Of a stretch of DNA of 64,000 nucleotides, positions 28,740 through 46,942 are shown in pieces (the first letter of the stretch is position 1; every line of letters starts with the position of its first letter). Source of the stretch: Methylophaga sp. 41_12_T18 (lineage in GTDB: Bacteria; Pseudomonadota; Gammaproteobacteria; Nitrosococcales; Methylophagaceae). The notes under the pieces were generated by a model. That model was not told the origin of the DNA. It was given only the letters and a program-made list of their open reading frames with translations, and searched no databases. The stretch spans positions 1-64,000 of the forward strand of contig MAAI01000043.1 in NCBI GenBank assembly GCA_002163115.1, given 5' to 3'. Position numbers and translations under genes: made by a program.

Positions 28740-29676
28740 TTAGATATGTATCTACCGTTTTTGTTAGTTGTTCATCCATTGTTGTCACCGGCTGCCAACC
28801 TAATAAGTCACGCGCCTTAGAACTATCTACTTGCAAAGAACTAAATAAACGCTCCGTGACAGCTTGCTTTCCTAATCGTTTAGCAACAAACTTCATCCAA
28901 CTCACTGGAATAGGTATCAACATAGAACGCTTACCTAAAGCCAGAGCAACTTTTCTCAACAATTGCGTGGTTGACACATCTTCATCATCAGAAATCAAAA
29001 ATATTTCATTAGCGGCTTTAGGATGGTCAATACAATGAATAATGAAATCAACCAAATTATCCAACGCAACCAAAGATCGTTGATTATTTATTGCACCAAA
29101 AGGCAATGGAATACCACGCTCAACCCATTTTATCATTGATAAAAAGTTAGCTTTTACGCCTGGACCATATACCAATGGTGGCCTAATAATCACTACTTCC
29201 ATTCCTGTTTCTTCTGCTATTTTTAAAAGCCCTTGCTCTGCTTCATATTTGGAAATCGCATAAGGTTCTTGGGGGGCTGGTTTATCTAGCTCCTTAAATG
29301 GAAGTGTATTACTGTTGCCATTAACACCTATTGAGCTAATAAATATAAACCGACTAGCTCCTGCTTCAGCTGCTTGCTTAGCTAAGTGCAATGTACTTGC
29401 AGTATTGATGTTCCGATATTCTTTTAACGGATCAGCTGCTATTTCATGAAGAATATGTGCTCTTGCAGCGGTATGTATGACAACATCCACACCCAGTATA
29501 GCCTCCGACCAATTTTCATCAGGCAATAGTTCATTCTGTGTAATATTTTCAATAATATTGTTTTTAAAAGTCGAAAATGGCCGAATACTACCACTAACAC
29601 TATGCTCAGTATCTCCTAGCCGCCTGATTAATGATTGGCTAAGAAAACTGTTTAGTCCTGTTAAAAAAAGCTTCAT
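28723..29676 (-). CDS. NAD-dependent epimerase/4-reductase, WbpV-like
   Basis: Extended short-chain dehydrogenase of 317 residues. The NAD site is the TGxxxFLS form (LTGLNSFLSQSL) seen in UDP-6-deoxy-4-keto-HexNAc reductases, and the catalytic pair is in YAISKYEAE. By context it should reduce the product of the WbpM-like dehydratase at 50-52 kb to UDP-QuiNAc or UDP-FucNAc, which the next gene loads on the lipid carrier. The exact stereochemistry cannot be read from sequence. Overlaps the upstream glycosyltransferase by 4 bases. Confidence 0.88.
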   Translation of the reverse strand: MKLFLTGLNSFLSQSLIRRLGDTEHSVSGSIRPFSTFKNNIIENITQNELLPDENWSEAILGVDVVIHTAARAHILHEIAADPLKEYRNINTASTLHLAKQAAEAGASRFIFISSIGVNGNSNTLPFKELDKPAPQEPYAISKYEAEQGLLKIAEETGMEVVIIRPPLVYGPGVKANFLSMIKWVERGIPLPFGAINNQRSLVALDNLVDFIIHCIDHPKAANEIFLISDDEDVSTTQLLRKVALALGKRSMLIPIPVSWMKFVAKRLGKQAVTERLFSSLQVDSSKARDLLGWQPVTTMDEQLTKTVDTYLNEKII

Positions 29677-30827
29677 GACTTACTTTTATTCATTAATAAG
29701 CGATATTCTTGATGTAATAATTGACTGACAAGCGTCGTATCGAATTCTTTACGACAACGTTCAAATGCTTTTTCACCTAAGTCTTTACAATACTCCTCAT
29801 TAATAACTAACTTTTCTAGAGCTTCTTGTAACTTTACTGTGTTCTGTGGTTCAACCAAAATCCCAGTCACTTCATGTTGAATTGCATCTGTTAATCCATA
29901 AATGTTACTGCCTAAGGTCGGAACTTTCATTGCCGCAGCTTCAATCACTACTGTTCCAAAACCTTCTCGGTAACTAGGGAGACATAATAAACTTGAAACA
30001 TTTAAATACTGCTCAGGATTTTTTTTTGTGCCTAAATAATGTAAACGCTCAATATTTATCCACTGGCGTAAATTTATTTCAGTAGTTTTTTCTTCACACG
30101 GCCCAATTAATAGTAAATGCAGATGTTTATATTTTTTTTGTAAGGCATCGAATGCAGAGACAAGCTCATTTATGCCTTTATCTCTACTCAATCGCCCTAT
30201 AAATGTAACAATAAAGTCTGTCTTTTTTATATTTAAGTCACGAAACATGCTCTCTTGCTGCCAATGACCATTATCAAACCTATCCAAATCGACACCAGCC
30301 AACGAACCAGCACCAATAACTTTAATTGAAGATTCTTGGCCTACCCCTTCAGAAATGAGGTATTGCTTTTGTCCTTTGCTATCTGCATAACACTGAGTAT
30401 TTAACTTTGTAATTAATATATCAATTAACCGGTATACCCATCGTGCCGGCCCACTTTTATTAGCCCAAACTTGACCTGTAAAAGTATGCACTCTACTAGG
30501 AACCCCGGCTAACTTAGCTGCTATCGCACAAAGTAAACCAGCTTTTGGTGTTGCCGAATGTACAATATCAAAACGATTTTCTTTAAAAAATTTATACAGA
30601 TTAACCAGTGAAATAAAGTCTTTAATTGGTGAGGGTGCTCGTGCAATATCAATAGGTATACATTTTAGCCCCTCAACAGCTTGAAGCCTGCTCCAGTCAC
30701 CTTCCAGAGAAGCAACAGCAGTAACATCTATGCCCTCATCGACTAAATATTTTAATTGTTGCCGTAATTGGTTATCTAGAAAAAAAGGAACCGTCACAAC
30801 CCTTGCTATTTTTATTTTCTTATCCAC
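29673..30827 (-). CDS. Glycosyltransferase family 4
   Basis: Retaining GT-B glycosyltransferase, 384 residues, acting at the inner face of the cytoplasmic membrane. C-terminal domain shows GRLSRDKGINEL and the EX7E motif EGFGTVVIE; the N-terminal acceptor domain has HSATPKAGLLCAIAAKL, similar to transferases that add the second sugar to an undecaprenyl-PP-HexNAc. A run of nine A in the coding strand (30019-30027) lies in frame at TKKNP. Donor and acceptor unknown. Confidence 0.92.
   Translation of the reverse strand: MDKKIKIARVVTVPFFLDNQLRQQLKYLVDEGIDVTAVASLEGDWSRLQAVEGLKCIPIDIARAPSPIKDFISLVNLYKFFKENRFDIVHSATPKAGLLCAIAAKLAGVPSRVHTFTGQVWANKSGPARWVYRLIDILITKLNTQCYADSKGQKQYLISEGVGQESSIKVIGAGSLAGVDLDRFDNGHWQQESMFRDLNIKKTDFIVTFIGRLSRDKGINELVSAFDALQKKYKHLHLLLIGPCEEKTTEINLRQWINIERLHYLGTKKNPEQYLNVSSLLCLPSYREGFGTVVIEAAAMKVPTLGSNIYGLTDAIQHEVTGILVEPQNTVKLQEALEKLVINEEYCKDLGEKAFERCRKEFDTTLVSQLLHQEYRLLMNKSKS
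30019..30027 (-). repeat. A9 homopolymer in a glycosyltransferase gene
   Basis: Nine A on the coding strand, read as ACA AAA AAA AAT, in an intact frame. Such runs can slip during replication or transcription, but A/T runs are frequent in this AT-rich cluster, so this alone is weak evidence for variation. Confidence 0.35.
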
Positions 30828-30836
30828 TGACCTATA

Positions 30837-31877
30837 TTACCTAGCAAATCCATTTAAAATCATAACTATAAAAGCTACTACTGAAGAAAATACAACATAC
30901 GGAAGTAGCTTATTTAACTTATCCCATAATGTTGAATAACGTACTGTCACCGCAACCAAAATTGCTGCAAATAACCAGGCAGTATAAGCATACCGGTTAG
31001 AAAAATTGGCAAAGCCTAATAATAAAAAAGGTATTAGCAAAATCACATATATCTTTAAACATAATTCGACGGTTTTTTGATACTGCTCTTTAACCCAGAA
31101 ACTCTGGAATATCATTGTGAAAACTACCCAAAATAAAGAAAACAGTAAGAAGTCATATCGAACTCCACTATCATAATCGTAATTTTGTTGATAACTTGTT
31201 ATAGAACTATATAACTCAATATTTGTTACTTCAGATATCCATGCTATTAGATGAGCCGAACCACCAATACCATATAATATAGAAAGAAATGCAACACCGC
31301 CGAGTAACAATGGTAAAGGAACAAAAATCGCCCCCAACAGCAATATATACATTACCGATGCATAATGAATCGAAATAGCAATAATGGAGATGACGATACA
31401 TTTCCCCCATTCTCTATTTTGAAAACACAGATAAACATAAAAAATTAAAAAACCAGCCATCCCTTGTCTGATAGCATTAATTTGACTTGAGACAAAAAAA
31501 GGGGACACCAATAAAGCGGAAAAAACTAGGTATCTCAGTGAGATATCAATTTTCTTATCATTATTAATACTGTCAATTTCAGATACGACTTTATTAGCCA
31601 GAATAAATAACGTAATAGATATGAGTGTGAAATAAAACTTTACTCCTAAGCCGCTCTGAGCAGCTAAATACGTAAAGAGTTGAAATCCAAATTCTCGGTT
31701 AAAGGTAAAAAACTCACCTTCTTCCATTGCAAAAAAACGGTTAGCATAAGTAAGTGTATCAGTACCAACAGACAGCTCTCTGCTTCCAACAATCACTGCC
31801 AATACCAACGCTATAATATATAAAAATATTAATTTATAATTATTTCTAATATAGCTGCTCTGCTGCTCGAAACTCAT
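30837..31877 (-). CDS. EpsG/Wzy-type O-antigen polymerase
   Basis: Polytopic inner-membrane protein of 346 residues with about ten hydrophobic helices and an EpsG-like start (GSRELSVGTDTLTYANRFF). Such proteins polymerise lipid-linked repeats on the periplasmic side. It is the only polymerase candidate in the cluster. Low sequence conservation is usual for Wzy, so the role rests on topology, the EpsG-like motif and neighbours (glycosyltransferases and flippase). Overlaps the upstream gene by 4 bases. Confidence 0.85.
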   Translation of the reverse strand: MSFEQQSSYIRNNYKLIFLYIIALVLAVIVGSRELSVGTDTLTYANRFFAMEEGEFFTFNREFGFQLFTYLAAQSGLGVKFYFTLISITLFILANKVVSEIDSINNDKKIDISLRYLVFSALLVSPFFVSSQINAIRQGMAGFLIFYVYLCFQNREWGKCIVISIIAISIHYASVMYILLLGAIFVPLPLLLGGVAFLSILYGIGGSAHLIAWISEVTNIELYSSITSYQQNYDYDSGVRYDFLLFSLFWVVFTMIFQSFWVKEQYQKTVELCLKIYVILLIPFLLLGFANFSNRYAYTAWLFAAILVAVTVRYSTLWDKLNKLLPYVVFSSVVAFIVMILNGFAR

Positions 31878-32689
31878 TGGAGGCCACGTAGCGCTAGTCT
31901 TCTAAGATATTTAGTTAATGAAAATACACATAAGAAATAATATTGATACTGCTTCAAACTTCTTGACTTTAAAACTTGTCGATATGCGCCCAACTCACCC
32001 TTTTCCATTTCCCACAAATTTTGGCTCAAACCTGATTCACCATAAGGCATCTTATACATATAAGATAACTCTATGTCTAGCTTAATGACAATTAAGCCAT
32101 CACAAATTATATTAAGCCAAAGTAAGTAATCTTCAGCGTACCGTAGTGTCTCATCGAATCTAAATTTAATATTTCTCTTAAGCATTACGGTAGGTGTTGA
32201 TAAAGAATTAGATAAAAGAAATGGCCATTTCTTTACTTTTGAATAGGGAATACTTTTTCCCAACTGAGGCAATAAAGCACTGCCTGTACCAGTTTTTTTG
32301 TAACCGATGTTATGGCCACATAAATCAACATCAGGATGCGCTTTCAACCAGTGATATTGAAACTCAACTTTATGCGGGTGCCAACTGTCATCAGCATCTA
32401 AAAATGCAATATAATCTGACTTGGCAAGCTTCCACCCTTCATTTCTAGCAAACGATGCCCCCCTGTTATTATCCAAATGAATAATTTGAATCCAGCCTTG
32501 TTGGTACTCTTTCTTTAAGTTTGATAGCAGCTCTAGTGTTCGATCACTACTCGCGTCATCAACTAATATTAGCTCAGCAACAGTTAACGTCTGTGATGCA
32601 ACAGACTGTACAGCTCGAACAATTGTTTTCTCACTTTGGTAGCACGGAACGACCACACTCACAGAGGCCGTCATAATATAGAAAACCAC
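31874..32689 (-). CDS. Glycosyltransferase family 2
   Basis: Inverting GT-A transferase of 271 residues. Visible motifs: start SVVVPCYQSEKTIVRAVQSV, LVDDASSDRT for nucleotide binding and the metal-binding FLDADDSW near residue 95. One C-terminal helical part follows. Its donor sugar is unknown. Coupled to the polymerase gene by a 4-base overlap. Confidence 0.9.
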   Translation of the reverse strand: MVFYIMTASVSVVVPCYQSEKTIVRAVQSVASQTLTVAELILVDDASSDRTLELLSNLKKEYQQGWIQIIHLDNNRGASFARNEGWKLAKSDYIAFLDADDSWHPHKVEFQYHWLKAHPDVDLCGHNIGYKKTGTGSALLPQLGKSIPYSKVKKWPFLLSNSLSTPTVMLKRNIKFRFDETLRYAEDYLLWLNIICDGLIVIKLDIELSYMYKMPYGESGLSQNLWEMEKGELGAYRQVLKSRSLKQYQYYFLCVFSLTKYLRRLALRGLQ

Positions 32690-32719
32690 ATTTCGACAAA
32701 TAAATTATTTTGTCCGTTC

Positions 32720-33997
32720 TCAATACACATGCTTTCTTGCCGTCAAATAAAACAATATAACCAAAACAAGCTCACTAATAAATGTTGTGGCTGCCGCCCC
32801 AATATTCCCCCAAATGGGTATAACAATAATATTCAATATCACATTAAGCAATGCTGTTACCCCCATACACTTTACTTTTCTTTTCATATTACCTGGCTCG
32901 ACAAAAACAGATTCAATACTTGAAGATAGAAAGCGACAAGGTATACACAAAGCCAAAATCATTATCAGAGGAATGACACTAATATAGGCATCACCGAAAA
33001 TGACAGGAATTATGGCGGGTACAACTAAAAAAATGATACCCATAACACCAAGCCCGGCTAACAACATAATACGATTACCAGCTTGATAAACACTAATAAA
33101 CTTAGCCTTATCATGAACAGCCCATCGGTGTAATTTTGGTAATAAAAATCGTTGGTAGAAAATAGCTGGAAACAGGTAAACTGCGCCGAGGATAATAAAA
33201 GAAACATTATATATACCCGCACTTTCAGCACTATCTAGGTACTTCAATAAAATAATGTCACTTTGATAATAAACTACATACAAAAAACCAGCGAGAGCAA
33301 ATGGGTAAGACTCCTCGATAACATTTTTAATTGTTGGCTTGCGTAACAACTTATAGCTATTACTTTGCGAATGTCCTTTTAACTTAAGCTTCCCCTGGAG
33401 TATTTCTTTTAAAGAAAACACTCCAAAGATAACTAATACAATAGAGCATAGAGACACTCCTATCGACAGGTTAATTAAGTCATATTCGTCGGTTAATATA
33501 GAAAAATAAACACTAACCCACAGAAAGCGTAAACTATTTAACAGTAACTGCCATAAAGATAAAGCTCCATATTTTTCTTCTAACTGTAATTTAGCTACAA
33601 CCAACTCAAATAGAACCTGTCCGGCTAATACTGGGAAAAAAAGCCAAATGATTAAGTTCTGAAAAATCAGGCTATGAGGCCCCCAATAAGCCCAAGCTAC
33701 TAAAACCATTGAAATCACAAAAATACTGACAGATACTAAATATAGAGTTGATTTAACCCATCGAATAGCTTGACGGCCTTCTTGGCCAAAAACTCGTAAC
33801 CAAAAATGTGGGACACCAGCGGTGGCAAATGATGAAACTAAAGTTATCACTGCCAAAATCGCTATAAAAAAACCGTAATCTTCTGGCCCTAACTCTCTGG
33901 CCATAATCACATTTGTAACAAAAGCCAAGCCACCAGTTAAAAATGAACTTAAATAAAGCAATATCATTGAAGCCATGGCCAATGATATTTTATGCAT
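32720..33997 (-). CDS. Wzx-type oligosaccharide flippase (first of two)
   Basis: MATE-like polysaccharide flippase of 425 residues with about 12 to 14 helices; the start (MASMILLYLSSFLTGGLAF) and early AREL-GPEDYGFFIAI motif are typical. It moves the undecaprenyl-linked repeat to the periplasmic side. A second family member lies at 44.6-46.0 kb, which is unusual in one cluster. Confidence 0.9.
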   Translation of the reverse strand: MHKISLAMASMILLYLSSFLTGGLAFVTNVIMARELGPEDYGFFIAILAVITLVSSFATAGVPHFWLRVFGQEGRQAIRWVKSTLYLVSVSIFVISMVLVAWAYWGPHSLIFQNLIIWLFFPVLAGQVLFELVVAKLQLEEKYGALSLWQLLLNSLRFLWVSVYFSILTDEYDLINLSIGVSLCSIVLVIFGVFSLKEILQGKLKLKGHSQSNSYKLLRKPTIKNVIEESYPFALAGFLYVVYYQSDIILLKYLDSAESAGIYNVSFIILGAVYLFPAIFYQRFLLPKLHRWAVHDKAKFISVYQAGNRIMLLAGLGVMGIIFLVVPAIIPVIFGDAYISVIPLIMILALCIPCRFLSSSIESVFVEPGNMKRKVKCMGVTALLNVILNIIVIPIWGNIGAAATTFISELVLVILFYLTARKHVY

Positions 33998-34074
33998 ACT
34001 TACCTACATGCTTCATCACCTGTGACTCTAATAACATTAAATTCACAATTTTTTATTACCTTTGATACTGAGCA

Positions 34075-34833
34075 TTACGGTCTCTTTGTATACTGAAGGA
34101 AACGATCGAATATTTTTCTGAATACCCAGCTAACCGTCGAAAAATTTGAATCTCTCGCTTTCATCACAGAAAGAATTTCACGATTTTGTTCAATAATATT
34201 TGAAAAACTCCCATTAGTTGTCCCCCCGACTCTCATTTTAACTAACACTTCAGGTAAATAAGAATTAGTAATAACTTTCTCTTCCAGAAGCCGATACATC
34301 AACTCAAAGTCAGCAGCGATTTGATAATTCAGGTTAAATGCATTATATTTTTTATATACTTCATTACGCACAAAAAAAGTTGGATGCGCCGGAACCCAAG
34401 CCTTACGAAACATTCCTAGTTGAAAAGATGCCGATTTCCAAAAACGCACCACCTTATCTGTATCCACTTGCTCGACATAAACCAAATCACCATAGATTGC
34501 ATCAAGAGTTTCAAACTTCATAAATTCATCAGCAACTCTTTCAATCACCGATGAATGTGCGTATAAATCATCTGAATTTAGTGTCGCAACAATATCGCCT
34601 GATGCCATAGCAATTCCTTTATTCATCGCATCATAAATACCACGATCCGGCTCACTAATAACTTGATGTATCTTATCCGAATACTCATCAATAATTGACA
34701 AGGTATTATCCGTAGAGCCGCCATCAATAATAATATATTCAATATCAGAATACGTTTGAGAAATAACAGACTCAATAGCTGCTCGAATAAACTCTTCGGA
34801 ATTAAAACAGACGGTAATAATCGAAATTTTCAC
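34075..34833 (-). CDS. Glycosyltransferase family 2, WcaA-like
   Basis: GT-A transferase of 252 residues: MKISIITVCFNSEEFIRAAI, IIDGGSTDNT and metal-binding LNSDDLY. It is closely similar over the first hundred residues to the product of 38053-38841 and, like it, is paired with a GT4 gene (34830-36074) on the upstream side. Stop overlaps nothing; the GT4 stop and this start overlap by 4 bases. Donor unknown. Confidence 0.9.
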   Translation of the reverse strand: MKISIITVCFNSEEFIRAAIESVISQTYSDIEYIIIDGGSTDNTLSIIDEYSDKIHQVISEPDRGIYDAMNKGIAMASGDIVATLNSDDLYAHSSVIERVADEFMKFETLDAIYGDLVYVEQVDTDKVVRFWKSASFQLGMFRKAWVPAHPTFFVRNEVYKKYNAFNLNYQIAADFELMYRLLEEKVITNSYLPEVLVKMRVGGTTNGSFSNIIEQNREILSVMKARDSNFSTVSWVFRKIFDRFLQYTKRP

Positions 34834-36074
34834 TTTTTATGTTTCTTTTTTAGTTCATATGCATCAGCAATTATTTTTAAATATTGCTCGCGAATTACAG
34901 GATAAGAAAACTGCCTAATTACATGCCTCCTACCATTAGCGCCGAGCTCTTTTCTTCTTTCTTCACTCATCAAAATAAATTTCTTCATTTTTTCAGCTAG
35001 TTGTCGACTACTAAACGGTTCAACTGTAAGCCCCGTTTTTTCATTTTCCACAATATCCTTCAACCCAGAACATTCAAAGCAAATGACAGGTGTTTCACAA
35101 GATAGTGCCTCTGCAGCAACTTGACCGAAAGACTCTACTAAAGATGGTACAACCAAGCAATCTACACTTGAATAAAGGTTTGCTAATTTTGCTGGCTCTG
35201 CAATATGCCCTAAAGAAATCGTAGTAAAACCAAAGTTATTAGATTCGCCTAATTTAGGCCCACCAAAATTGACAAATTTTATTCTTTCGATGATATTTTT
35301 TTCTAACTTTAAACTTAACCGTGCAATTGCTTCATTTAGTAAATTCGAGCCCTTTAACAAGTTTTTTTTCCCACCAATGGCTCCAAAACAAAAAACAATA
35401 TCATCCCTTTTTAAATGATGGCTCTTTCGAAACCTTATAACATCAGCAAGATGCGACGGTTGAAATAAAGATACATCTATAGGATTTGGAAGAAGTCGAA
35501 CATCCGCTTGCTTTAAAATCAAACTTTTCTTAGCTCTAGCTAGCATCCATTTTGAGGGTACGGTATAGATTAAATCATCACGGTGACTAAGTTTATAATG
35601 TTTTATCTTCCAGAGAATATAGTTCCAATGAAGCCCCCACACGCCTTTTCGAAAAAAAACATACCCATCTATAAAATCTAAGTGCTGTTCTTGAATATTA
35701 TAATAATGCTCAGCACCACAATAAAGCCATTCATCATGGAGTGTAATAATCACACCAGATGGAATTTTATGTAAATTAAAAATACTCAACGTATCGTTGT
35801 TAAACCAGTGAAAATGTATCACCGATTCCTTTGAGCTCTGTATAAATTTAAATATAGGTTGATAACTAAATAAATTAAGTGAGTGTTTAACTGGGTTACC
35901 ATCAAATTGAAACTTTGTCAGAGCAAAAGAAACCAACCTTTTCAAAAACTGGATACGACCGGCATCTAACTGGCAAAATGTATCAACATTATTGCCTAAA
36001 AGAGTCTTGAATTTCGCCGCAGCTAATGCAGCACCACCTTTCTTAAAGGAGTATGAAACTAACGATACTTTCAT
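34830..36074 (-). CDS. Glycosyltransferase family 4, WcaC-like
   Basis: GT-B transferase of 414 residues. N-terminal KKGGAALAAAKFKTLL and HFHWFNNDTLSIFNL with LHDEWLYCGAEHYYN, C-terminal EX7E motif ESFGQVAAE. These N-terminal motifs are shared with the product of 38957-40165 and recall colanic acid WcaC. Pairs with the GT2 gene downstream through a 4-base overlap. Donor and acceptor unknown. Confidence 0.9.
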   Translation of the reverse strand: MKVSLVSYSFKKGGAALAAAKFKTLLGNNVDTFCQLDAGRIQFLKRLVSFALTKFQFDGNPVKHSLNLFSYQPIFKFIQSSKESVIHFHWFNNDTLSIFNLHKIPSGVIITLHDEWLYCGAEHYYNIQEQHLDFIDGYVFFRKGVWGLHWNYILWKIKHYKLSHRDDLIYTVPSKWMLARAKKSLILKQADVRLLPNPIDVSLFQPSHLADVIRFRKSHHLKRDDIVFCFGAIGGKKNLLKGSNLLNEAIARLSLKLEKNIIERIKFVNFGGPKLGESNNFGFTTISLGHIAEPAKLANLYSSVDCLVVPSLVESFGQVAAEALSCETPVICFECSGLKDIVENEKTGLTVEPFSSRQLAEKMKKFILMSEERRKELGANGRRHVIRQFSYPVIREQYLKIIADAYELKKKHKK

Positions 36075-36095
36075 CTACTTAATATACGATTAAAA

Positions 36096-37127
36096 TCAAG
36101 GCAATGCATAAGATTTAACTTGTCTTTCATCTTTAATTTTTATAGAAACACTATCATTAATAGAACTTAATCCACTATAGGAATCAATAGTCTGCTCATT
36201 AATAATCACCTTCAAACTAGACGGTACTTCAGGGTCAAAAATTAAGCCATTTACTCCATCTTTAATGAGTTCACTTGCACCACATTTATTAGAAATAACC
36301 ACAGGCAGCCCAAAATAAAGAGCCTCCTCTACAACCAGGCCCCATGGTTCTCTTAAGCTTGGCAGAATTAAAAAATCATTTTCCATATAAAAGCTTTTAA
36401 GCTGTGCGTTATCGACTTGCCCATGAAAATAAATATTCTGTTTTGCTAGATTTTCTAGCTTTTCCTTTAAAGGACCTGTACCTACAATTGTTAACTCTAC
36501 ATCATCCAGCTCATTAAAAGTTTGGACCAAATACGTTAAATTCTTTTCTTCCGATAGGCGACCTACATATAAATACTTTTTTTTATACAGCCTAATAACA
36601 GGAGAAAATTTTGGTTTATTAATGACACCAACACCTTGCGTGATATAGATATTCCCTTTGAAACTCAATGCCAGCAGTAATTGCTTATGCAATAAACCTG
36701 ATGCAAAAACACCAGAGACCCTAGATAAAAACAATTTTTTGATCCAACCTCGAACACCATCAGTACGGCTTTCAAAAATTGTTGACTCTAAGGCCAGGTA
36801 ATTTTTCTTTTTAACATTTGAACAAACCAAATACCAAAACTCAACAAGGTCCCAGCCACTTACCAAAACTCTTTTTGTAGGTGTTGATAATAAAATAGCC
36901 CTTAGTTTTCGAATATTTCTCAGTTTACTTCGGTGCTGAAAACTTCCTTTATCTAAAATTTCATAACTAAAACTAATAGGTTTCGTATTTATAAAATCCG
37001 TAGCTCGTTTTTCTGTAGTTTCACTGGCAATAAAAACAACATGAAGTTTTAATTTCTTACTCATTTCATTGTACAAATTTACTTTATAAAAAGCAGGAAT
37101 ATGAGTAATGATTATATAGTCATACAT
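36096..37127 (-). CDS. Glycosyltransferase family 4
   Basis: GT-B transferase of 343 residues with YVGRLSEEKNLTYLVQTF and EX7E motif EPWGLVVEE in the C-terminal domain; the N-terminus MYDYIIITHIPAFYKVNLYN is of the type that binds lipid-linked acceptor. Its ATG at 37127 would overlap by 8 bases the stop of the upstream acyltransferase if that gene's frame is restored at the G9 tract, so translation of this gene may be coupled to the switch state. Confidence 0.9.
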   Translation of the reverse strand: MYDYIIITHIPAFYKVNLYNEMSKKLKLHVVFIASETTEKRATDFINTKPISFSYEILDKGSFQHRSKLRNIRKLRAILLSTPTKRVLVSGWDLVEFWYLVCSNVKKKNYLALESTIFESRTDGVRGWIKKLFLSRVSGVFASGLLHKQLLLALSFKGNIYITQGVGVINKPKFSPVIRLYKKKYLYVGRLSEEKNLTYLVQTFNELDDVELTIVGTGPLKEKLENLAKQNIYFHGQVDNAQLKSFYMENDFLILPSLREPWGLVVEEALYFGLPVVISNKCGASELIKDGVNGLIFDPEVPSSLKVIINEQTIDSYSGLSSINDSVSIKIKDERQVKSYALP

Positions 37128-37255
37128 ACTTAAACAATGACCTATTATGAAACTTCATTTTTAACATTAGCAAACAATGTAGCAATAGTACTGACAACAG
37201 CATTTTATAATACCACTCACCGTGTGCTAGCTTGTCTACAACAATACTCGCGACA

Positions 37256-38056
37256 TTATTTGTATAGGGATGAAAAATGAACAGCAACATTGTATTCCCC
37301 CCCCCACAAAACGATCAGTCGATGAGAGTAATTAATATTCTTAACAGCTCCAATCAACAGGTAGATACATGCCACCGCCCAGCCAATATTAATCAATACA
37401 TTTCCATACTGCTTTTGTGACATATTTAACTTAGGGATGCCATTGAATAGATAAATAGCCACAAGTGCTAACAACATAAATGGCCAGTAAGCAGCCTGAT
37501 TATCCAACTTAAATAAAAAATAACCAAAATACACAAAAATAAACGAGTTAAATGCATTATCAATGGCTAAAGGCAACTGAATATAAAAACTAACGATGAA
37601 ACTGATAACAACTAATATCCACTGAAAAACTAATGGAATATTTGACTTGAGCATCAGATATGTCAATATCCGTGCAAAAAATAATGCCGGCAAGAACCAC
37701 AACACAAAAGCATAGCTTTCAATTAATGTATCCATATCCATCCAGATAAACACACCAGATAAAGCATTGCTAAACTCCAGAGACTCTCGATGAAGTAGTA
37801 GCCTTTTTATTGTCTCCAACATCAAGCCCATACAAGCAAATATAAAATATGGCACCATCAATCTTTTAAAGTCTTTCTCTAGAAACTGATCCACACTTAA
37901 ATCAGTTTTAATAAAAAAACCTGCCAACATGAAAAATAATGGCATATGCCAGGAAAAAATAAACGTACCTAAAGGTGAAGCAATATGCCCCATTATCACA
38001 GCAATAATGCCAACAAACTTTAGTGTATCAACCCATTCGAGCTTCACCTTGTTCAA
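37256..38056 (-). CDS. Acyltransferase 3 family O-acetyltransferase, truncated at a G9 tract (probable phase-off)
   Basis: Membrane acyltransferase resembling fucose 4-O-acetylases, expected to acetylate a sugar of the surface glycan. The start LEWVDTLKFVGIIAVIMGHI contains the conserved His24, and FSWHMPLFFMLAGFF the second motif. As written it is 266 residues and stops at 37256 soon after a run of nine G (37297-37305, residues 251-253). With eight G the frame continues as WGGNTMLLFIFHPYTNN and on through a last hydrophobic helix to a TGA at 37120, giving 311 residues, normal for the family and overlapping the next gene by 8 bases. Phase variation is the preferred reading; a homopolymer sequence error is the alternative. 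Confidence 0.88.
   Translation of the reverse strand: MNKVKLEWVDTLKFVGIIAVIMGHIASPLGTFIFSWHMPLFFMLAGFFIKTDLSVDQFLEKDFKRLMVPYFIFACMGLMLETIKRLLLHRESLEFSNALSGVFIWMDMDTLIESYAFVLWFLPALFFARILTYLMLKSNIPLVFQWILVVISFIVSFYIQLPLAIDNAFNSFIFVYFGYFLFKLDNQAAYWPFMLLALVAIYLFNGIPKLNMSQKQYGNVLINIGWAVACIYLLIGAVKNINYSHRLIVLWGGEYNVAVHFSSLYK
37297..37305 (-). repeat. G9 homopolymer (candidate contingency tract)
   Basis: Nine consecutive G on the coding strand inside the acyltransferase gene, in an AT-rich cluster where such a run is very unlikely by chance. Length change by one base moves the gene between a truncated and a full-length form. Confidence 0.9.
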
Positions 38057-38841
38057 TTTCTTAATTTCCTAAAAACTGCTGAAAGTGAAACTTTTAAAAA
38101 ATATTTAGAATAAATCCAGTACTTTATAAACTCCAAATGTATATCACTTGCAACATGGTTCTCTTGTTTAATTTTGTGGTATTCCTGAAATATTTTTAAG
38201 GTATTTCCATTACCAAGCCCATCATCTCTCCAGTTAGCCACCACATCTTCAACAAATTCAACCTCCGGGAAGTCGTCATATGCCCGCAACAAATGCTCGT
38301 AATCCATACAATAGGTGTTATTAACATCAAACAAGCCATATTTTTCAAAAAAACTACGCCTGGTAAATAAACCTTGGTGAGGAAGTGACATTCGATAAAG
38401 TAGTGATTTTTTATTAAAGGGCACCTGCTGTTTGGAAACGTATAGTTCATTGCCCGAGAGGTCTATTCTTCGTATTTTCCCACTAACAAAACTATTTGGA
38501 GAACTTAAACTTTTTTGAGCAATTTTAGTAAGGGCAGTATTATCAACAAAACCATCACCGTCGCCTTGAAAATTTATTAATTCTCCCGATGACAACTGAA
38601 TACCTTTATTGAACGCATCACTGATACCATTATCTTCCTCGCTCACCCAGTGAGCAATGACATGCTCATACTTCCTTATAATATCTAACGTACCATCCGT
38701 AGAACCACCATCAATAATGATATATTCCACATTACCATAATCCTGACTGATAATACTTTTTATCGTCTCGTCTAAAAACTGTTCGCCATTATATACCGCT
38801 GTAATAACAGTAATTAAAGGAAGATTACTAAATAAGATCAC
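38053..38841 (-). CDS. Glycosyltransferase family 2, WcaA-like
   Basis: GT-A transferase of 262 residues: LITVITAVYNGEQFLDETI, IIDGGSTDGT, and a metal-site region QGDGDGF in place of the usual DxDD form. Similar to the product of 34075-34833. Overlaps the acyltransferase start by 4 bases. The 115 bases upstream of it, before the next gene, show no further gene. Confidence 0.88.
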   Translation of the reverse strand: MILFSNLPLITVITAVYNGEQFLDETIKSIISQDYGNVEYIIIDGGSTDGTLDIIRKYEHVIAHWVSEEDNGISDAFNKGIQLSSGELINFQGDGDGFVDNTALTKIAQKSLSSPNSFVSGKIRRIDLSGNELYVSKQQVPFNKKSLLYRMSLPHQGLFTRRSFFEKYGLFDVNNTYCMDYEHLLRAYDDFPEVEFVEDVVANWRDDGLGNGNTLKIFQEYHKIKQENHVASDIHLEFIKYWIYSKYFLKVSLSAVFRKLRN

Positions 38842-38956
38842 CAGCCTTTACACCTTTCAAAAGAGAGCATGTCGGATAAGCAATAGTCCTTCACTTTTTA
38901 TAGTATTCTTTGGAGCAGAGCCTAACAGGCTAGCACTCTCTACCTCCCGTAAGATA

Positions 38957-40165
38957 CTAAACATTGCTACCCTCAATGACTTTCTCATACACATTAATAT
39001 ATTTTCTGACAACAACCTGGCTGTCAAACTCACGTAAAACTTTTTCCCTTGCCATTTGAGATAACTCTGAATAGTTATCTGCATCCAAAACAAATTTGAT
39101 ACCCTCAACTAGGTCATCAATATCAAACGGTTTAGCTAAGTAACCATTTCTTTTATGATCAATGATATCAAGCAAGCCCGTATGCCCGAAAGCAACGACT
39201 GGTACCCCACACGCCATGGCCTCACTAGCCGTTTGTCCAAAAGCCTCTTGACGGGAAGGCACAATCATTACATCAACAGCACTATATAAAGTAGCAAGGC
39301 TAATATCATCAGACAAGTTACCCATATAATGTATTTGACAGCCAATATTAGGAGGAGATTTAGGTCGCGTTGAGCCAAATACTACAAGTTCAGTATCATC
39401 TATTTTTAACTTTGACAGTGCATTTAAAAGCTCTTTAAAACCTTTCCGAGGGTCACTTTCTGCAGACATCGCACCAAAAAGGATTATTTTTTTACCTTTA
39501 GGTAAGTTCCAAGCCTCTCTAGAGTATTTTTTTTCTAAGGGCTTATATACTTCGGTATCAAGAGGGTTGGGCAAGCTTATAATGTTCTTATTGCCAAAAA
39601 TAGTACTCGTGCGTGCACATGTCTTCAGCCATTGACTCACCCCAATTACTGTCATGTTTTTTATTTTCAGATATGTATTTTTCTTTCTTCTTAATATCCT
39701 ATCATTCAACCATTTATGATAAGGACTAACTAGCAATTCATCATAATGCCAGCCCCCATTCAATGGCCACAGATCATGTAGACTCCATACTATAGGTGCA
39801 TTAATCTTAGCCAAATCTTCAATCCTCAACATGCCAGCATTAATCCAATGAAGATGAACGACATCTGGGTTAAGTTTATTGATTTTCTTTATTAATTTTC
39901 CAGACGGCAGCCATGAGTGGCTAAATAAGGCAGAAGCTTTACTTTTAGATAGCCGAAATGGGATAGAATCTAGCCTAGGTCTTAATGCATTTATTAGTTT
40001 ATCAATTTTTGAACATGGTCCTAGAACAGTGGAATCATCACTATCCTTATATTGTACTAACATTTTACTATCAATATTTTGAGTTAATAATGCTTGATGA
40101 AGACGGTAAGTCGCTCGGGCGGCCCCTCCCTGAATATCAAAGCTATTTACAATTAGAACTCTCAC
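38957..40165 (-). CDS. Glycosyltransferase family 4, WcaC-like
   Basis: GT-B transferase of 402 residues. N-terminal IQGGAARATYRLHQALL and HLHWINAGML with LHDLWPLNGGWHY; C-terminal EX7E motif EAFGQTASE. Shares these motifs with the product of 34830-36074, as if the GT2-GT4 module had been duplicated or both came from a related donor cluster. Overlaps the methyltransferase gene by 4 bases. Confidence 0.9.
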   Translation of the reverse strand: MRVLIVNSFDIQGGAARATYRLHQALLTQNIDSKMLVQYKDSDDSTVLGPCSKIDKLINALRPRLDSIPFRLSKSKASALFSHSWLPSGKLIKKINKLNPDVVHLHWINAGMLRIEDLAKINAPIVWSLHDLWPLNGGWHYDELLVSPYHKWLNDRILRRKKNTYLKIKNMTVIGVSQWLKTCARTSTIFGNKNIISLPNPLDTEVYKPLEKKYSREAWNLPKGKKIILFGAMSAESDPRKGFKELLNALSKLKIDDTELVVFGSTRPKSPPNIGCQIHYMGNLSDDISLATLYSAVDVMIVPSRQEAFGQTASEAMACGVPVVAFGHTGLLDIIDHKRNGYLAKPFDIDDLVEGIKFVLDADNYSELSQMAREKVLREFDSQVVVRKYINVYEKVIEGSNV

Positions 40166-40971
40166 TTAGTCGCTTCAATATAAAGGGAATGGATTCCTTT
40201 ATATGGAGTACCATCACTATTACAGTCCAAGTTAAATGAATTAAAACTGTTAATTTGGCTGGTATTAAAAGTTTTGACCAAAATATTATTAAACCCAGCT
40301 TCTTGTAAGAGCTTTGACAAAGAGTATTTGTCGTACATCCACTTGTGCTTTTCACCAATATTCGTTTTAACAATCATACTTTTCCTAATATTTTTAGGAA
40401 TTAATAACTGAATGCAATGCAAATACAAATATAATATTCTATTTTTAACTTTATTAAATGTGACAGTTCTTTTATGTTTACATGCAGTATTCTCTTTTAA
40501 CAGACTCTCACCCGTTCTATGTGAAATATAGTCCACTAAATACATATCCTTTTCATTAGTGACTTTATCGAACATTCTTTGCATGTAACCACCTGCAACA
40601 TCTCGAGTTAGTTGATCAAGAAGTTCAACGGTAATCCATTCATACTTTCTAATGTTATCACTATCCCCAATCCCATCAAGAACAGTGAGGTATTCTCTGC
40701 ATACGTTCTCTAAATCAGGTACTACAATTCTTACTACACCCTTTTCTTTTAGAACCCGATACATCTCACCAACAATATTTTCACCATCACTTATTGATAA
40801 GTGCTCTAGAAAGTGGCTGCTATATACTCCATCCATTAAGCCATCATCGAATGGAAGCCCCTCAAGTAAGTTAGCTTGACGTACCTTTGATGAATCAGAA
40901 TGAAAATCTATATTTATCCAATCATCATGGTACCGCCCCCCACACGCGACATTCAACATCTTCATGTCCAC
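40162..40971 (-). CDS. Class I SAM-dependent methyltransferase-like protein
   Basis: Predicted methyltransferase of 269 residues. Motif I is LNVACGGRYHDDWINID with the SAM-binding loop, followed by YSSHFLEHLS and VLKEKGVVRIVVPDLE, the usual order of class I enzymes in polysaccharide clusters. It may methylate a sugar of the repeat or cap the chain; the sequence does not decide. Start may be ATG 40971 or one of the next two ATG codons. Confidence 0.85.
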   Translation of the reverse strand: MDMKMLNVACGGRYHDDWINIDFHSDSSKVRQANLLEGLPFDDGLMDGVYSSHFLEHLSISDGENIVGEMYRVLKEKGVVRIVVPDLENVCREYLTVLDGIGDSDNIRKYEWITVELLDQLTRDVAGGYMQRMFDKVTNEKDMYLVDYISHRTGESLLKENTACKHKRTVTFNKVKNRILYLYLHCIQLLIPKNIRKSMIVKTNIGEKHKWMYDKYSLSKLLQEAGFNNILVKTFNTSQINSFNSFNLDCNSDGTPYKGIHSLYIEATK

Positions 40972-41864
40972 ACCCTCTTCAACTTACTAATTATTCGCAT
41001 AACTATAGTTTTCTTATTATTTTTATAAAAGAGCTTCAAGTAATCCATTGCTAATTTATCTTCTTGCAAAACATCAGTGAAAGTAATAAATCTGCTTTCT
41101 GTCTCATTGCTGATGTAAATATCATCAGTATCACAATGGCTCCCGCTAGCATCAAACCCTATATTATGAACATAAGTTCGAGTAGGATTTACACAAAGTC
41201 CACTTTGCTTAAAAATAGTTGCATACCAAAAGATTGCCCATGTGTTAATTTTCCCTTTTTTGTTAGCAATAACCTGACCAAAGAAGTTCTCGACACCATC
41301 CAAATTAAACGCTCTTGTTTCTTTTTTTGTAAAATCACTAATCACACCATCAATATCTTTATCGTAATACTGCCACCTATCAGCCCAGGTAGCCCAGCCC
41401 CAACAATTCATTAAACGCCACAAAAACATGTTAGTCAGCCAATCAGTAGGGAACGGATAATTCCAGCCACTTACATGCCAAACCTTAGGTTTATCTGCAT
41501 AAAACTCTAATGCATCATTCATAAAATTCAAAAAATATGGGCTAGTAACTAAATCATCTTCTAAGACAATAATTTTTCCATATTTATTAATTATGGTTGT
41601 TACTCCATCGATAATTGAGCTTGCAAGCCCCCAGTTTCTTTCTCTTTCAATAATTGTGATTTTATTAAAACCATTAATGGACTTAATATACCTTCGGACC
41701 TCATTAACGGATTGACTCGCCAGTTCATTTTTTGCAGCATCAGAGTAGATAAATAGCTCACTATCCTGTGCTAATTCATTTTTCGCTAAGGCTTCAATTG
41801 TTTGTTGAGTATGCCACGGACGGTTGTAAACAAATAGAACAATAGGGGCTAACTTTTTAACCAT
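40962..41864 (-). CDS. GT-A-fold glycosyltransferase, HlpA-like family
   Basis: About 300 residues. Start PIVLFVYNRPWHTQQTIEAL, metal-site region VLEDDLVTSPYFLNF and the aromatic NCWGWATWADRWQYYD are typical of a GT-A-like family often labelled sugar transferase or hemolytic protein HlpA-like. Likely a glycosyltransferase of the cluster; donor unknown. Overlaps the methyltransferase start by 10 bases and the small gene upstream by 8. Confidence 0.82.
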   Translation of the reverse strand: MVKKLAPIVLFVYNRPWHTQQTIEALAKNELAQDSELFIYSDAAKNELASQSVNEVRRYIKSINGFNKITIIERERNWGLASSIIDGVTTIINKYGKIIVLEDDLVTSPYFLNFMNDALEFYADKPKVWHVSGWNYPFPTDWLTNMFLWRLMNCWGWATWADRWQYYDKDIDGVISDFTKKETRAFNLDGVENFFGQVIANKKGKINTWAIFWYATIFKQSGLCVNPTRTYVHNIGFDASGSHCDTDDIYISNETESRFITFTDVLQEDKLAMDYLKLFYKNNKKTIVMRIISKLKRVWT

Positions 41865-42006
41865 TCTTATAATCCGTGAATATTACGATATATAAATCAT
41901 CATCAACTTTACCCAAAATATCTAGAATACCCATCACACGGTTTCGAATACTTAATAACGCTAATGATAAATCGATATGATCTGATCCTGCTATTTTTAC
42001 CTTCAT
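41857..42006 (-). CDS. Small hypothetical protein in the polysaccharide cluster
   Basis: A 49-residue frame starting MKVKIAGSDHIDLSLALL. Its ATG overlaps the stop of the fucosyltransferase (ATGA), AAGG lies 5 bases upstream, and its end overlaps the next glycosyltransferase start by 8 bases, so it fits the tightly packed operon and fills what would otherwise be a 140-base gap. No domain recognised. It could be a real small protein or a remnant that keeps translational coupling. Confidence 0.45.
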   Translation of the reverse strand: MKVKIAGSDHIDLSLALLSIRNRVMGILDILGKVDDDLYIVIFTDYKNG

Positions 42007-42860
42007 AACTGCCTTACGTCTATTGTAGCGCCCCATACAGGTTGAATACATGGATGCGACTCAGCTCTTTTTTTCCAGCCATACCAATACTTAGGAAATA
42101 TCATTAATTTTTTATCAACTGAAAGAAAAGCACCCCACCATGAAAAGCTACTATTTGAAACAACACCATAATCACATAAAGACATTATTGCTAAATCAGT
42201 TGCTAAGTTTTCCTTCGAGATATATTTATTTTTTATTTCACTAAAACAGTCTCGAACATAACTTGGGTCATCCGTTAGAAAAATATAAAAAGGATTTCTT
42301 ACTTTCCCCTCAACTAACTTCATAGCATCAAGAAAGTATTGTTTTGGCAATTCAATTCCGCGTTCACCCTGATATATTTCAGAAATATAATCCCCCCTTC
42401 GGACATGAATAAATACCTTTTCTTTTTGAGGTAGTAATTGCAGAATGTTTTTTGCTACTTTTACATGCTCACCTTTTAAACAAAAATCTACTTTTGCATT
42501 TTCAAATAACTTTTCTGACTGGAAAAATCCTGTTTTCACATAAGTAAAAGGTATAAATCCCTTCACCTCAGAAACCTCGGGGATTGGCTTGCCATCATCT
42601 CCTCTTAGCTGCTTAATACAGCCAATCACCTTAAAACGGACTAAAATAGTTAATATTTTAGAAATTAGCTTTCTATAAATAAATGAAGTTATTCTTGTTG
42701 TTGTTAGAAAAGTGAAATGTGGATTTCCAATATTAAAATACTTACTAAATTGAGTCATGTTGATACATAAGACTTTTTCACTAGTCTTTGCTCTAGTGTT
42801 TAGAAATGCATATTGAAAAGATTGATTTCCTAATCGGCCATCAGATATAAAAAAGAGCAT
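42003..42860 (-). CDS. Alpha-1,2-fucosyltransferase, GT11 family
   Basis: Transfers L-fucose from GDP-fucose. The 285 residues start with the GT11 motif GRLGNQSFQYAF (8-19), carry the GDP-fucose-binding HVRRGDY (152-158) and the late SNSSFSWWGAF. Gmd and Fcl, which make GDP-L-fucose, are encoded 3-5 kb upstream in the same cluster, so donor supply and use agree. The fucose may be the target of the acyltransferase at 37.3-38.1 kb (inference). Confidence 0.93.
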   Translation of the reverse strand: MLFFISDGRLGNQSFQYAFLNTRAKTSEKVLCINMTQFSKYFNIGNPHFTFLTTTRITSFIYRKLISKILTILVRFKVIGCIKQLRGDDGKPIPEVSEVKGFIPFTYVKTGFFQSEKLFENAKVDFCLKGEHVKVAKNILQLLPQKEKVFIHVRRGDYISEIYQGERGIELPKQYFLDAMKLVEGKVRNPFYIFLTDDPSYVRDCFSEIKNKYISKENLATDLAIMSLCDYGVVSNSSFSWWGAFLSVDKKLMIFPKYWYGWKKRAESHPCIQPVWGATIDVRQL

Positions 42861-42926
42861 TTAATTACTTCTTTAAGTTGACAATATAACTATCATGTAA
42901 GTATCGATGAGGGGAGTGGAAATCCA

Positions 42927-43592
42927 TTATGCAAGGTTCCGGACAGAGAGTAATTTCTTCAGTGAACTTTTGACGTCATTGAGGATATTAGACTTACTCT
43001 GTTCGCGCCACGCACTGGTAATACTTTGCTGAAGAAAACTTTTAAACTTACTCTCTATATTTTTAGAATATAAATAAATAACATCCTCGTATTCAACTAA
43101 ATCCCAGTCAGCAGGTATAACCTTTGTAATATCTGATAATGAAGGCCACTCTTTATAATCATGCGGCAGGGGAGGCGGAGCCAAAAACAGTCTCGCATCA
43201 TCAATTAAAATTACACAGTTTTTTTCATAATTAAAAATGATTTCTAACTCTTTTATAAGCGGGCATTCATCTGATTTTCCATATGTATCCCCTCCACTCC
43301 AGTGAGCATCAAGCCAAAATAGAATATTGTCATTATTCTCCAATATTCCATGTAAATGTGCTCTTGTATCGCCTTTTAGCATACTAACATTTGAATACTG
43401 TTTTAACTTTTCTTTTGCCTTTTCATACATTACTTCCGAGTTTTCAATGGTATAGACCTTACTGAAAATATTACTCATAACAGCAGCAGTACCACCTTGA
43501 TAGGTTCCACCTTCAACGAAGACATCCAGGTTCATGGTTACTTGTAAAAACTTCACTTCTTTTTCCGGAATACCAAAACTTACCGAGCCCAC
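42927..43592 (-). CDS. SAM methyltransferase-fold protein
   Basis: About 221 residues with a class I methyltransferase-like core: VFVEGGTYQGGTAAVMSNIF (motif I), YTIENSEVMYEKAKEKL, LFWLDAHWSGGDTYG and ILIDDARLF. The WLDAHWSG and IDDAR pattern resembles TylF/CmcI-type or FkbM-adjacent proteins. I prefer GTG 43592, seven bases after AGGAG; ATG 43598 would be only one base from it. Role in glycan modification inferred from place. Confidence 0.75.
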   Translation of the reverse strand: MGSVSFGIPEKEVKFLQVTMNLDVFVEGGTYQGGTAAVMSNIFSKVYTIENSEVMYEKAKEKLKQYSNVSMLKGDTRAHLHGILENNDNILFWLDAHWSGGDTYGKSDECPLIKELEIIFNYEKNCVILIDDARLFLAPPPLPHDYKEWPSLSDITKVIPADWDLVEYEDVIYLYSKNIESKFKSFLQQSITSAWREQSKSNILNDVKSSLKKLLSVRNLA

Positions 43593-43864
43593 TATCATTC
43601 TCCTTTCCAGTTATTCTAGCCTTACAGCCATTATATAAATCATATATTAAATTTACTCTTTGACGACATGCTGTAAAACTCAACTATCAATTCTCACTAT
43701 TATCACAAATAAAGACTTACCTATATTTGAGTGCCGAATTATTATCATGTCCCATAATATCAACTTCATTTATCTCTACTCGCTAATTTTACACTTTATT
43801 TGTAACGCTCACCCTTGTGATTTAAATCTAATACTGCAAATATCAGAAAACATAACTAGTACAT

Positions 43865-44634
43865 CTAACTCTTCTTCATCATATAAAACCCCGTTCCAAA
43901 CCCTTTCTGTGGTTCATAACTAGCAAACATCTCTGCTCCATAATGATACTTCTCTTCCAATAACTGAAAGCCTTCAAATAACTCCAGAATATAGTCTCTA
44001 GTAAAAGCTCTGTGTGCATTAAAATAAACTTTATTTTCACAGTCAACAGGAACACTAAACAACATCACCCCTCCAACCTTCAATACTCTCTTTAGCTCTT
44101 TGATGGCCTTTTCACTCCCATAAGGGTCTAACTCATCTCCATATCGTCCTAAACCTATATGCTCAACAACACATAACGAAGACAAAGTTTCTATAGAGTT
44201 ATCTTTGAAGGGCAGCTCCAATATAGAGCCTTTTTTGAAGAATAAGTTATCTAACTCTAACTCAATCGGTCTAATATCGATCATCGTAATTGGTGTGAAT
44301 TGAGATAAAATTCCCATTGTTTTCGCCGAACTCCCCACATCATAATGATGACTAGGCTTCAGGTCATACAAGTGTTTAGCCATCCAACTATCTTGAAAAA
44401 AATAAGTTGGTTCCAGTGGAGTATAAGTCAAATTATCATTTAAACAGGGAAACCACTCTATCCTTGGAAAGTTTTTATTTTCGAGGTGATTAGTAAATAC
44501 CTTAAACTCTCGTATTATCCAAATATATTGTTTAAGGGCCGCAATTGGTTTGAATCTAAAAAATACTACGCTTGCACAGCAAAATGCATAGATTGATCTT
44601 ATTACTTTATTTTTTTTAGTGCTACCTTAATCAA
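43865..44634 (-). CDS. DUF268 family protein, 5' end out of frame at an A8 tract
   Basis: Methyltransferase-like DUF268 protein: SSLCVVEHIGLGRYGDELDP and ELKRVLKVGGVMLFSVP are diagnostic. The uninterrupted frame with a usable start gives only 188 residues from TTG 44431, but coding-like sequence in the same frame extends upstream (RFKPIAALKQYIW, NFPRIEWFPCLNDN, matching the family N-terminus) to the end of the flippase gene with no ATG, GTG or TTG. Adding one A to a run of eight (44610-44617) joins it to a TTG at 44634 with GGAG eight bases upstream, overlapping the flippase stop; the product would be about 256 residues. Frameshift mutation, slippage control or sequence error. Confidence 0.72.
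44610..44617 (-). repeat. A8 homopolymer at the start of the DUF268 gene
   Basis: Eight A on the coding strand, a few codons after the inferred TTG start. One extra A would put the full gene in frame. Confidence 0.6.
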
Positions 44635-45967
44635 CTGTATTTCTCCCATTGAGTCTGATTTTTATTTTAAAACATGTGAATATACTTCTCACCTGTAAGA
44701 GCGCATTAGCTCTTGTTTTTACATAGCAAAGGTCAACTAAGAATATTGTTACAAAGAATGAACATATCGTAGCAATAACAGCCCCTTTTGCACCGTACTC
44801 ACTGATCCACATATAATTCAAAAAAATGTTTGTAATAGTCCCGAGGAGCATAGTTAGCATTGAAAATCTTACTAAGTTTTCTGTAATAATATAAGCACTC
44901 CGCGCAGTCCCCATGTTAGTGAAAAACAACCTTGAAACCATTAAAGAAAATATAATAGCAGCTGGTTGATATTCATCACCAAACAGTAAAACAATTAATT
45001 GCTCTGAAAAGAAAAAAAGAGGAACTGCTGTAATTAAAAATAGTAAAAAATTAAGCCTGTAAAAATTAAGTAGCCGATGCTTATAAATCTCGACTGAATT
45101 ACTCTTTGCATGCTGAATGGCAGGAAACAGTGAAGTTTTAAGCATCAATGGCAGAAAAGCTATAGCTTCAATTAAACGCAGTGCCACACTATAAAAACCA
45201 ACTTCATTAATACCCACCATCTCTTTCAGCATTATTTGATCAACCCTCGCTTGAATCATCAAAATAAGCCCACTAAATATTAACGGCCAAGAGTCGTGAA
45301 GCAGAGTTTTAGCCACTTGCCATTCAAAGCACCAATTAAACAGTTTTAATTGACTACTTTTATTATAAAAATAAAGTAAGCCTATCGCGAGGATTGCAGT
45401 ATCAAATACCATCACTAATGCAAAAGCTACTAAAGAAGCATTGTTTAAAATAAGTGAAATTTTAATAATACTTGAGATGGCCAAGCAAATAGTATTAGCT
45501 AGGGCAACATATTTAGAAAGTACTATTGATTGATAATAAAAATCGATTACATTAAAACTTTGAAAAATTGTCGATGATGCAATGATAAAAACTAGAAGGT
45601 TAGTGTATTGATCGTTACTAGTCATTTGAACCGCAACAGCTAATACTAGTAGAGTAACGATAGCTCCCAATAACTTTAAACCAAATGCCGTACCAAGCAA
45701 AACATCCCGTTTCACTTCACTTTTAACTAATTCACGAACAACTATGCCATCTAACCCCAGTGTAGCTATTGCAGTGAATAGAAAAACGAAACTTTGAGCA
45801 TAACTAAGCAAACCAAACTGTTCAGGACCTAAATACCTTGCCACCCATATCCCAACAAAAAGGCCAATAAACATCCGTAAAACTTTCTCAGCGAACAACC
45901 ATGAAGTATTGCTGAAATAACGCCTAATACCTTGATGTTGTTTAAGCTCTTTTAATTTTGACAGCAC
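44627..45967 (-). CDS. Wzx-type oligosaccharide flippase (second of two)
   Basis: Polysaccharide flippase of 446 residues with about 12 to 14 helices. The early WLFAEKVLRMFIGLFVGIWV and ARYLGPEQFGLLSYAQSF are typical of the RfbX/Wzx family. It follows fcl by 9 bases. With a different flippase at 32.7-34.0 kb, the cluster may have been assembled from two sources or export two glycans. Confidence 0.92.
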   Translation of the reverse strand: MLSKLKELKQHQGIRRYFSNTSWLFAEKVLRMFIGLFVGIWVARYLGPEQFGLLSYAQSFVFLFTAIATLGLDGIVVRELVKSEVKRDVLLGTAFGLKLLGAIVTLLVLAVAVQMTSNDQYTNLLVFIIASSTIFQSFNVIDFYYQSIVLSKYVALANTICLAISSIIKISLILNNASLVAFALVMVFDTAILAIGLLYFYNKSSQLKLFNWCFEWQVAKTLLHDSWPLIFSGLILMIQARVDQIMLKEMVGINEVGFYSVALRLIEAIAFLPLMLKTSLFPAIQHAKSNSVEIYKHRLLNFYRLNFLLFLITAVPLFFFSEQLIVLLFGDEYQPAAIIFSLMVSRLFFTNMGTARSAYIITENLVRFSMLTMLLGTITNIFLNYMWISEYGAKGAVIATICSFFVTIFLVDLCYVKTRANALLQVRSIFTCFKIKIRLNGRNTVD

Positions 45968-45976
45968 CTTGATTAT

Positions 45977-46939
45977 TTATCGTCTAAAGTCATTTTGATG
46001 CTTTAAAAACCATGAATAAGTTTGTTTTAATCCATCTTCTAGACTTATGGATGCTTTCCAGCCTAATCGTTCGATGCGTGAAACATCCATTAACTTTCTT
46101 GGCATTCCATCAGGTTTACTGCTATCAAACTCAACTTCACCATTAAACCCAACGACTCTTGCTACAGTTTCAACTAACTCTCTAATTGTGCAGTCAATTC
46201 CTGTACCGACATTTATATGAGATAACATTGGACTTGTTTCTTGTTGATATAACTCATCATCCAAATTCATTATAAAAACAGAGGCTTCAGCCATTTCATC
46301 TACATGTAAAAACTCACGCATTGGTTTACCTGTTCCCCATGCAATGACCTTATCAGCATTATCAAGCTTTGCTTCATGAAACCGCCTCAGTAATGCAGGA
46401 AGGACATGAGAGTTATCTGGGTGAAAATTGTCATTTTCGCCATAAAGGTTGGTAGGCATTACGCTACGATAATCACGTCCATATTGTCGGTTATAGCTTT
46501 CACACAATTTTATTCCAGCTATTTTTGCTACCGAATATGGTTCATTTGTACTTTCCAGTGTTCCAGATAACAAAGCATCTTCTGCCATAGGCTGTTTTGC
46601 ATTTTTTGGGTAAATACACGAAGAGCCAAGAAACAGTAGCTTATTAACATCATTAGTATGAGCGGCATGAATGATATTTGCTTCTATCATCAAGTTTTCA
46701 TAAATAAAATCAGCTGGGTATTCATTATTAGCATGAATGCCTCCAACTTTTGCAGCAGCCAAGTAAACTTGGTCAATTTTAACTTGTGAAAAAAACTGAT
46801 TAACAGCTTGCTGATCCAGTAAATCTAGCTCATCTCTTGTCGCAGTTATAATGTTATTGTCAGTGTTTAGTTTGAGCTGTTTAATAATAGCTCTTCCAAC
46901 CATACCATTATGGCCGGCTACGTATATATTCTTAGTCAT
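45977..46939 (-). CDS. fcl: GDP-L-fucose synthase
   Basis: Epimerase-reductase that converts GDP-4-keto-6-deoxy-D-mannose to GDP-L-fucose. NADPH site [12 protein letters not shown], catalytic SSCIYPKNA (Ser, Cys) and YSVAKIAG (Tyr-x3-Lys) are present in 320 residues. Lies 3 bases after gmd, the preceding enzyme, and upstream of the GT11 user of GDP-fucose. Also known as wcaG. Confidence 0.97.
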
Positions 46940-46942
46940 ATT

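Follow-up and report, generated by a model that had tools for sequence, protein, structure and literature searches.

Poly-G switches of enzymes that modify glycans have been described for the most part in bacteria adapted to a host, and are usually explained there by immune evasion. The repeat of Haemophilus influenzae oafA is of another type, a tetranucleotide, than the G tract described here. Among the closest described systems is pglI of Neisseria meningitidis, which encodes an acyltransferase-3 (AT3) enzyme acting on a surface glycan and carries a G tract, G(9-15), inside the gene (PMC5953494, PMC11130364; fold PMC9833829). PglI is unlike the protein studied here in having an extra SGNH domain and in being a pilin-glycan (protein-linked) O-acetyltransferase, whereas ours consists of the AT3 part only and is encoded in an O-antigen-type cluster; moreover, switching is proven for pglI and proposed here. 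The oafA product is likewise a phase-variable AT3 acetyltransferase of a surface glycan, an LOS O-acetyltransferase (PMC9558356), although it modifies the LOS core and its organism is host-adapted. In Vibrio cholerae O1, homopolymers lie in the O-antigen biosynthesis genes wbeL and manA, where loss of a single base truncates the product and phages select the variants, in pond microcosms as well (PMC3441752); the differences from our locus are the poly-A repeat, the enzymes concerned, and an effect on O-antigen synthesis rather than on acyl decoration. Salmonella WbaK-type AT3 proteins resemble ours in being stand-alone, encoded with O-antigen genes and implicated in acetylation of the repeat unit, and differ in that the passages of PMC9558356 on them make no mention of repeat-tract switching. 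In our literature search, no report of phase variation in Methylophaga came up, nor any marine AT3 switch. What is new here is the lineage and the AT3-only enzyme of an O-antigen-type cluster, the type of mechanism being already known (pglI, wbeL). The precedents to which the earlier note pointed are from host-associated bacteria, whereas the lineage of the window is probably, to judge from one Methylophaga relative, one of free-living methylotrophs; NCBI assigns Methylophaga to the Piscirickettsiaceae.

Here, we propose that a G tract in an AT3 gene makes it a translational contingency (phase-variation) locus through which acylation of an O-antigen-type glycan is switched, and that the gene is now OFF in the window (the whole 64,000-nucleotide stretch that was analysed). 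On the comparisons of sequence given below, we regard this as probable. The acyltransferase gene lies on the minus strand (37256..38056) and in its present, truncated frame encodes 266 residues from a TTG at 38056, a start that matches the N-terminal length of the homologues (an alternative start is GTG 38047). The proposed slippage site is a directly read run of nine G's (37297..37305, minus strand; C9 on the plus strand) in the context ...TTTTGT GGGGGGGGG AATACAATG..., and is the sole G/C run of at least 7 in the window. The open frame closes with ...LWGG-EYNVAVHFSSLYK, that is, 13 residues past the GG, so that the C-terminal end of the protein is LWGGEYNVAVHFSSLYK. One base away, the frame reads WGGNTMLLFIFHPYTNN...LFKYV, an out-of-frame continuation of 58 codons (N-T-M-L-L-F-I-F-H-P...) ending in TGA (37120..37296, minus strand), which holds the last two predicted membrane helices and overlaps the ATG (37127) of the next glycosyltransferase gene by 8 bases (37120..37127, minus strand). 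The earlier note had given the G9, the 13-residue tail, the 58-residue alternative frame, the stop at 37120 and the 8-base overlap, and all of these numbers were reproduced. As in a simple-sequence contingency locus, the repeat lies within a coding region, and the frame of the OFF allele beyond it is intact, with 58 codons free of stops.

The truncated form matches Pfam PF01757 (Acyl_transf_3) over profile positions 2-262 of 326 (E 2.5e-18; 66.7 bits against a cut-off of 31), and the full-length homologue from genome G032 scores 56.3 bits and reaches position 318 of 326. The R/K-x10-H motif of TM1 is present (K10...H21; KFVGIIAVIMGH in the window, KTIGILAVILGH in the homologue L006), and where RXXR is expected, at the cytoplasmic face of the third helix, we saw no more than K-x-x-K (KDFK) with R-L-x-x-P-Y behind it. 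The earlier note described the last helix of the restored C-terminus, with its HP, as typical of the family. The residues past the tract align with a G-x-x-T...I-x-x-H segment that AT3 proteins of distant bacteria share. Close to this position the literature puts the SXXXY motif of TM9, a helix listed among those that wall the acyl-CoA cavity (PMC9833829). We modelled the full-length L006 homologue with AlphaFold (mean pLDDT 76.7); the model shows 12 helical segments, which would fit ten membrane helices, and its final helices span residues 259-276 and 286-312 with low confidence between them. The equivalent of the tract begins at residue 255 and so precedes both, and the OFF form is therefore predicted from the model to lose the last two helices, including TM9. 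The top PDB match of the model in Foldseek was HGSNAT (probability 0.92, with a weak E of 0.098), in line with the common superfamily that has been proposed (PMC12423673); a sequence search of the PDB matched no chain.

The comparison with relatives carries most of the argument. Homologues occur in four other genomes of the family, at 48-49% identity to the window protein, and the three genes from genus g2 are nearly identical among themselves, with 739-742 of 744 bases shared ahead of the tract and all 168 bases shared past it. At the tract, G034 reads TTTGGGGGGAATACAATG (G6; frame lost, 271 aa), G032 reads TTTGGGGGGGGAATACAATG (G8; full length, 309 aa) and G007 reads TTTGGGGGGGGGATACAATG (full length, 309 aa), the last being in frame because its nine G's are offset by one A fewer. 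Thus, near-identical genes carry G6, G8 and G9 with one truncated and two full products, the differences in length being between species of g2, and in-frame and out-of-frame alleles stand side by side among close homologues, as expected of a contingency locus. The homologue from genus g4 has GCGAAAAATACTATG at this site, without a G tract, and is full length. The gene is hence truncated in two of the five genomes that carry it (the window and G034). The 8-base overlap of the ON frame with the next start recurs in G032 (2411-2418 of L003) and G007 (1330-1337 of L004). The earlier note had allowed for a G9 fixed in all relatives, or for homologues that end naturally at 266 residues; relatives instead carry G6, G8 and G9 minus an A, and uninterrupted homologues end as the other frame does, the single short one (G034) being short because of its own tract. 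With G6, the G034 tract may be too short to revert often. A search of 369 genomes of the class at E<=1e-20 returned the window's own gene and no other close homologue, viral contigs gave no match, and plasmids yielded nothing but distant AT3 proteins. Of the earlier reading, an ON/OFF switch of glycan acetylation that might serve phage or grazer evasion, the frame switch is well supported by the 6, 8 and 9 G tracts and the frames of the relatives; slippage as its cause, its reversibility, the inactivity of the truncated enzyme, the glycan acted on and a benefit under selection are what we infer.

The frame-breaking change stands out at the site of the G tract. When 13.8 kb of shared cluster was aligned among the three g2 genomes, hundreds of substitutions per pair were accompanied by only two small indel sites (a 262-base gap at the alignment end is the end of one sequence stretch and no indel). 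One is the G tract, the only indel within a gene, and the other is an intergenic T run behind an inverted repeat, which is terminator-like. As a control, three other in-gene G8 runs of the g2 genomes were found to be interrupted by substitutions or changed by multiples of three. The same 13.8 kb (L065, L066, L067) is a patchwork in which the differences per 500-base block number 0-5 for some blocks and 50-100 for others, which suggests, from the pattern of differences, recent exchange of cluster segments between the three g2 species.

The DNA downstream of the tract bears the marks of a coding sequence. Between the window and g2, pN ranges from 0.319 to 0.325 for the head and stands at 0.325 for the tail (the 56 codons past the tract), synonymous sites being close to saturation in either part. 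Up to the very recent past, the out-of-frame tail has therefore evolved as a coding sequence. In G034 the out-of-frame tail is identical to the ON alleles of its intact relatives. The downstream DNA of both truncated genomes can still be aligned, in another frame, to the C-terminal portion of the profile; some circularity attaches to this for the window, whose own tail went into the profile, and none for G034, although the near-identical G032 gene did go in. The intact, constrained tail led us to reject an old pseudogene. We also rejected a functional alternative C-terminus in the OFF form, as the window tail (EYNVAVHFSSLYK) and the G034 tail (EYNAFIYNSPIHKQYRNLDCR) are of unequal length and have little more than EYN in common.

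How unusual is the run itself? Dinucleotide shuffles of the window gave at least two G8 matches (equal to a run of 9) in 8 of 100 trials. Synonymous codon resampling of the full-length protein, drawing on the cluster's own codon usage, placed at least 8 G's in a row at the Trp-Gly-Gly site in 4.75% of draws, and nine in none of them. In itself, then, the G9 is mildly unusual and suggestive only. A pattern search of the whole genome (2.43 Mb, 94 contigs, 94.9% complete) counted ten G/C runs of at least 8, against about 12 estimated for independent bases at 41% GC, and the nine besides ours lie in or beside ordinary genes or are intergenic; looking at these nine, we found no large repertoire of such tract loci. 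The abundance of tracts was accordingly rejected as evidence, as G runs of at least 8 are about as frequent as base composition predicts, and because run frequency is near chance the evidence lies in the comparison with relatives. For Campylobacter, the published cut-off for variable tracts is a G/C run of at least 7, and runs of at least 8 have been tied experimentally to variation (PMC6321876). Elsewhere, the longest run among seven genomes scanned is one of 18 G's in the g4 genome (G031:C50:13650-13667), and the g2 genomes G007 and G034 hold, respectively, an 11-base G/C run just upstream of a 269-aa ORF (L032 1501-1511) and a 10-base G/C run within a short ORF (L031 1501-1510).

The acyltransferase gene sits in an O-antigen-type polysaccharide cluster (28179..48061, minus strand) that is mostly 34-37% GC, against about 40% outside it. 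The cluster encodes a priming transferase, an epimerase, an EpsG-like polymerase, flippases and glycosyltransferases, along with gmd (GDP-mannose 4,6-dehydratase), fcl (GDP-fucose synthase) and a GT11-type transferase. A fucose-containing glycan of O-antigen type is the likely substrate, with the particular sugar and the acyl group both presumed. On the minus strand, a GT2 glycosyltransferase (38053..38841; Pfam Glycos_transf_2) lies immediately upstream and a GT4 glycosyltransferase (36096..37127; Pfam Glycos_transf_1) immediately downstream; both are adjacent in the four relatives, and the order GT2-acyltransferase-GT4 is thus kept in five of five genomes. In the ON state the stop codon lies just inside the next gene, with an overlap of 8 bases, and in the OFF state it falls 128 bases upstream of that gene's start, so that polarity on the downstream glycosyltransferase is possible. 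An ATG six bases past the G run opens a 56-codon tail frame (37120-37290, minus strand) that ends at the start of the next gene and could soften such polarity. Elsewhere in the cluster, the G034 homologue of the window gene at 40962-41864 is split into two overlapping ORFs of 174 and 128 aa (L067 4395-5290), possibly a second frameshifted glycan gene.

What else might account for the locus? A sequencing or assembly error at the homopolymer, with the window gene truly in frame and fixed, would fit a draft genome of 94 contigs and the error-proneness of homopolymers. However, the G6 allele is a two-base change in a single-contig genome and the G9 of another genome is offset by one A fewer, neither being a single-base miscall, and no further in-gene indel occurs over 13.8 kb; we consider error improbable. 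We would give no more weight to a simple one-way loss of function, in which an easily mutated run has broken a gene bound to become a pseudogene, with no selected switching. Truncation in two of five genomes and a run no longer than chance allows would fit it, but neither truncated copy has a second lesion, the G034 tail is identical to that of intact relatives, the window tail is constrained like the head, and G007 has kept its frame despite an altered tract.

Two further explanations concern expression, and we would be surprised if either were correct. The G run could make the transcript slip or the ribosome shift frame, which would restore the reading frame and give some full-length enzyme at all times; the A7 allele of V. 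cholerae wbeL is indeed partly functional through tract-dependent non-standard decoding (PMC3441752). Against this, tract length differs at the DNA level among near-identical genes, and the in-frame form is found in two of three. Alternatively, translation could start at the ATG behind the G run, with the run as its Shine-Dalgarno sequence, and OFF cells would then make the C-terminal 56 residues separately, with a two-piece enzyme or retained coupling as the result. The spacing of six bases, the extension of this frame to the next gene's start and the invariance of the tail Met in four homologues are consistent with such a role, but the Met is conserved also where the G run is absent, and we think this highly doubtful as the main explanation.

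We thus return to the contingency locus. Strand slippage at replication would add or remove G's in the tract. A length that keeps the frame would yield the full AT3 membrane acyltransferase, probably O-acylating (most simply O-acetylating) the O-antigen-type glycan of the cluster, and at G9, as in the window, the last two membrane helices would be lost, the enzyme should be inactive and the glycan would stay unmodified. In a bolder and, in our view, unlikely form of this proposal, a lone O-antigen acylation switch is kept in two genera of apparently free-living methylotrophs by phage or grazer pressure, with the G run perhaps serving as a ribosome-binding site as well. If that were true, OFF cells could produce the tail as a peptide of its own without losing the coupling to the following gene, and a poly-G contingency locus would be maintained without a host immune system and outside any large repertoire. 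A switch in apparently free-living methylotrophs, in a cluster common to several species, raises the question of whether phages or grazers alone can maintain it.
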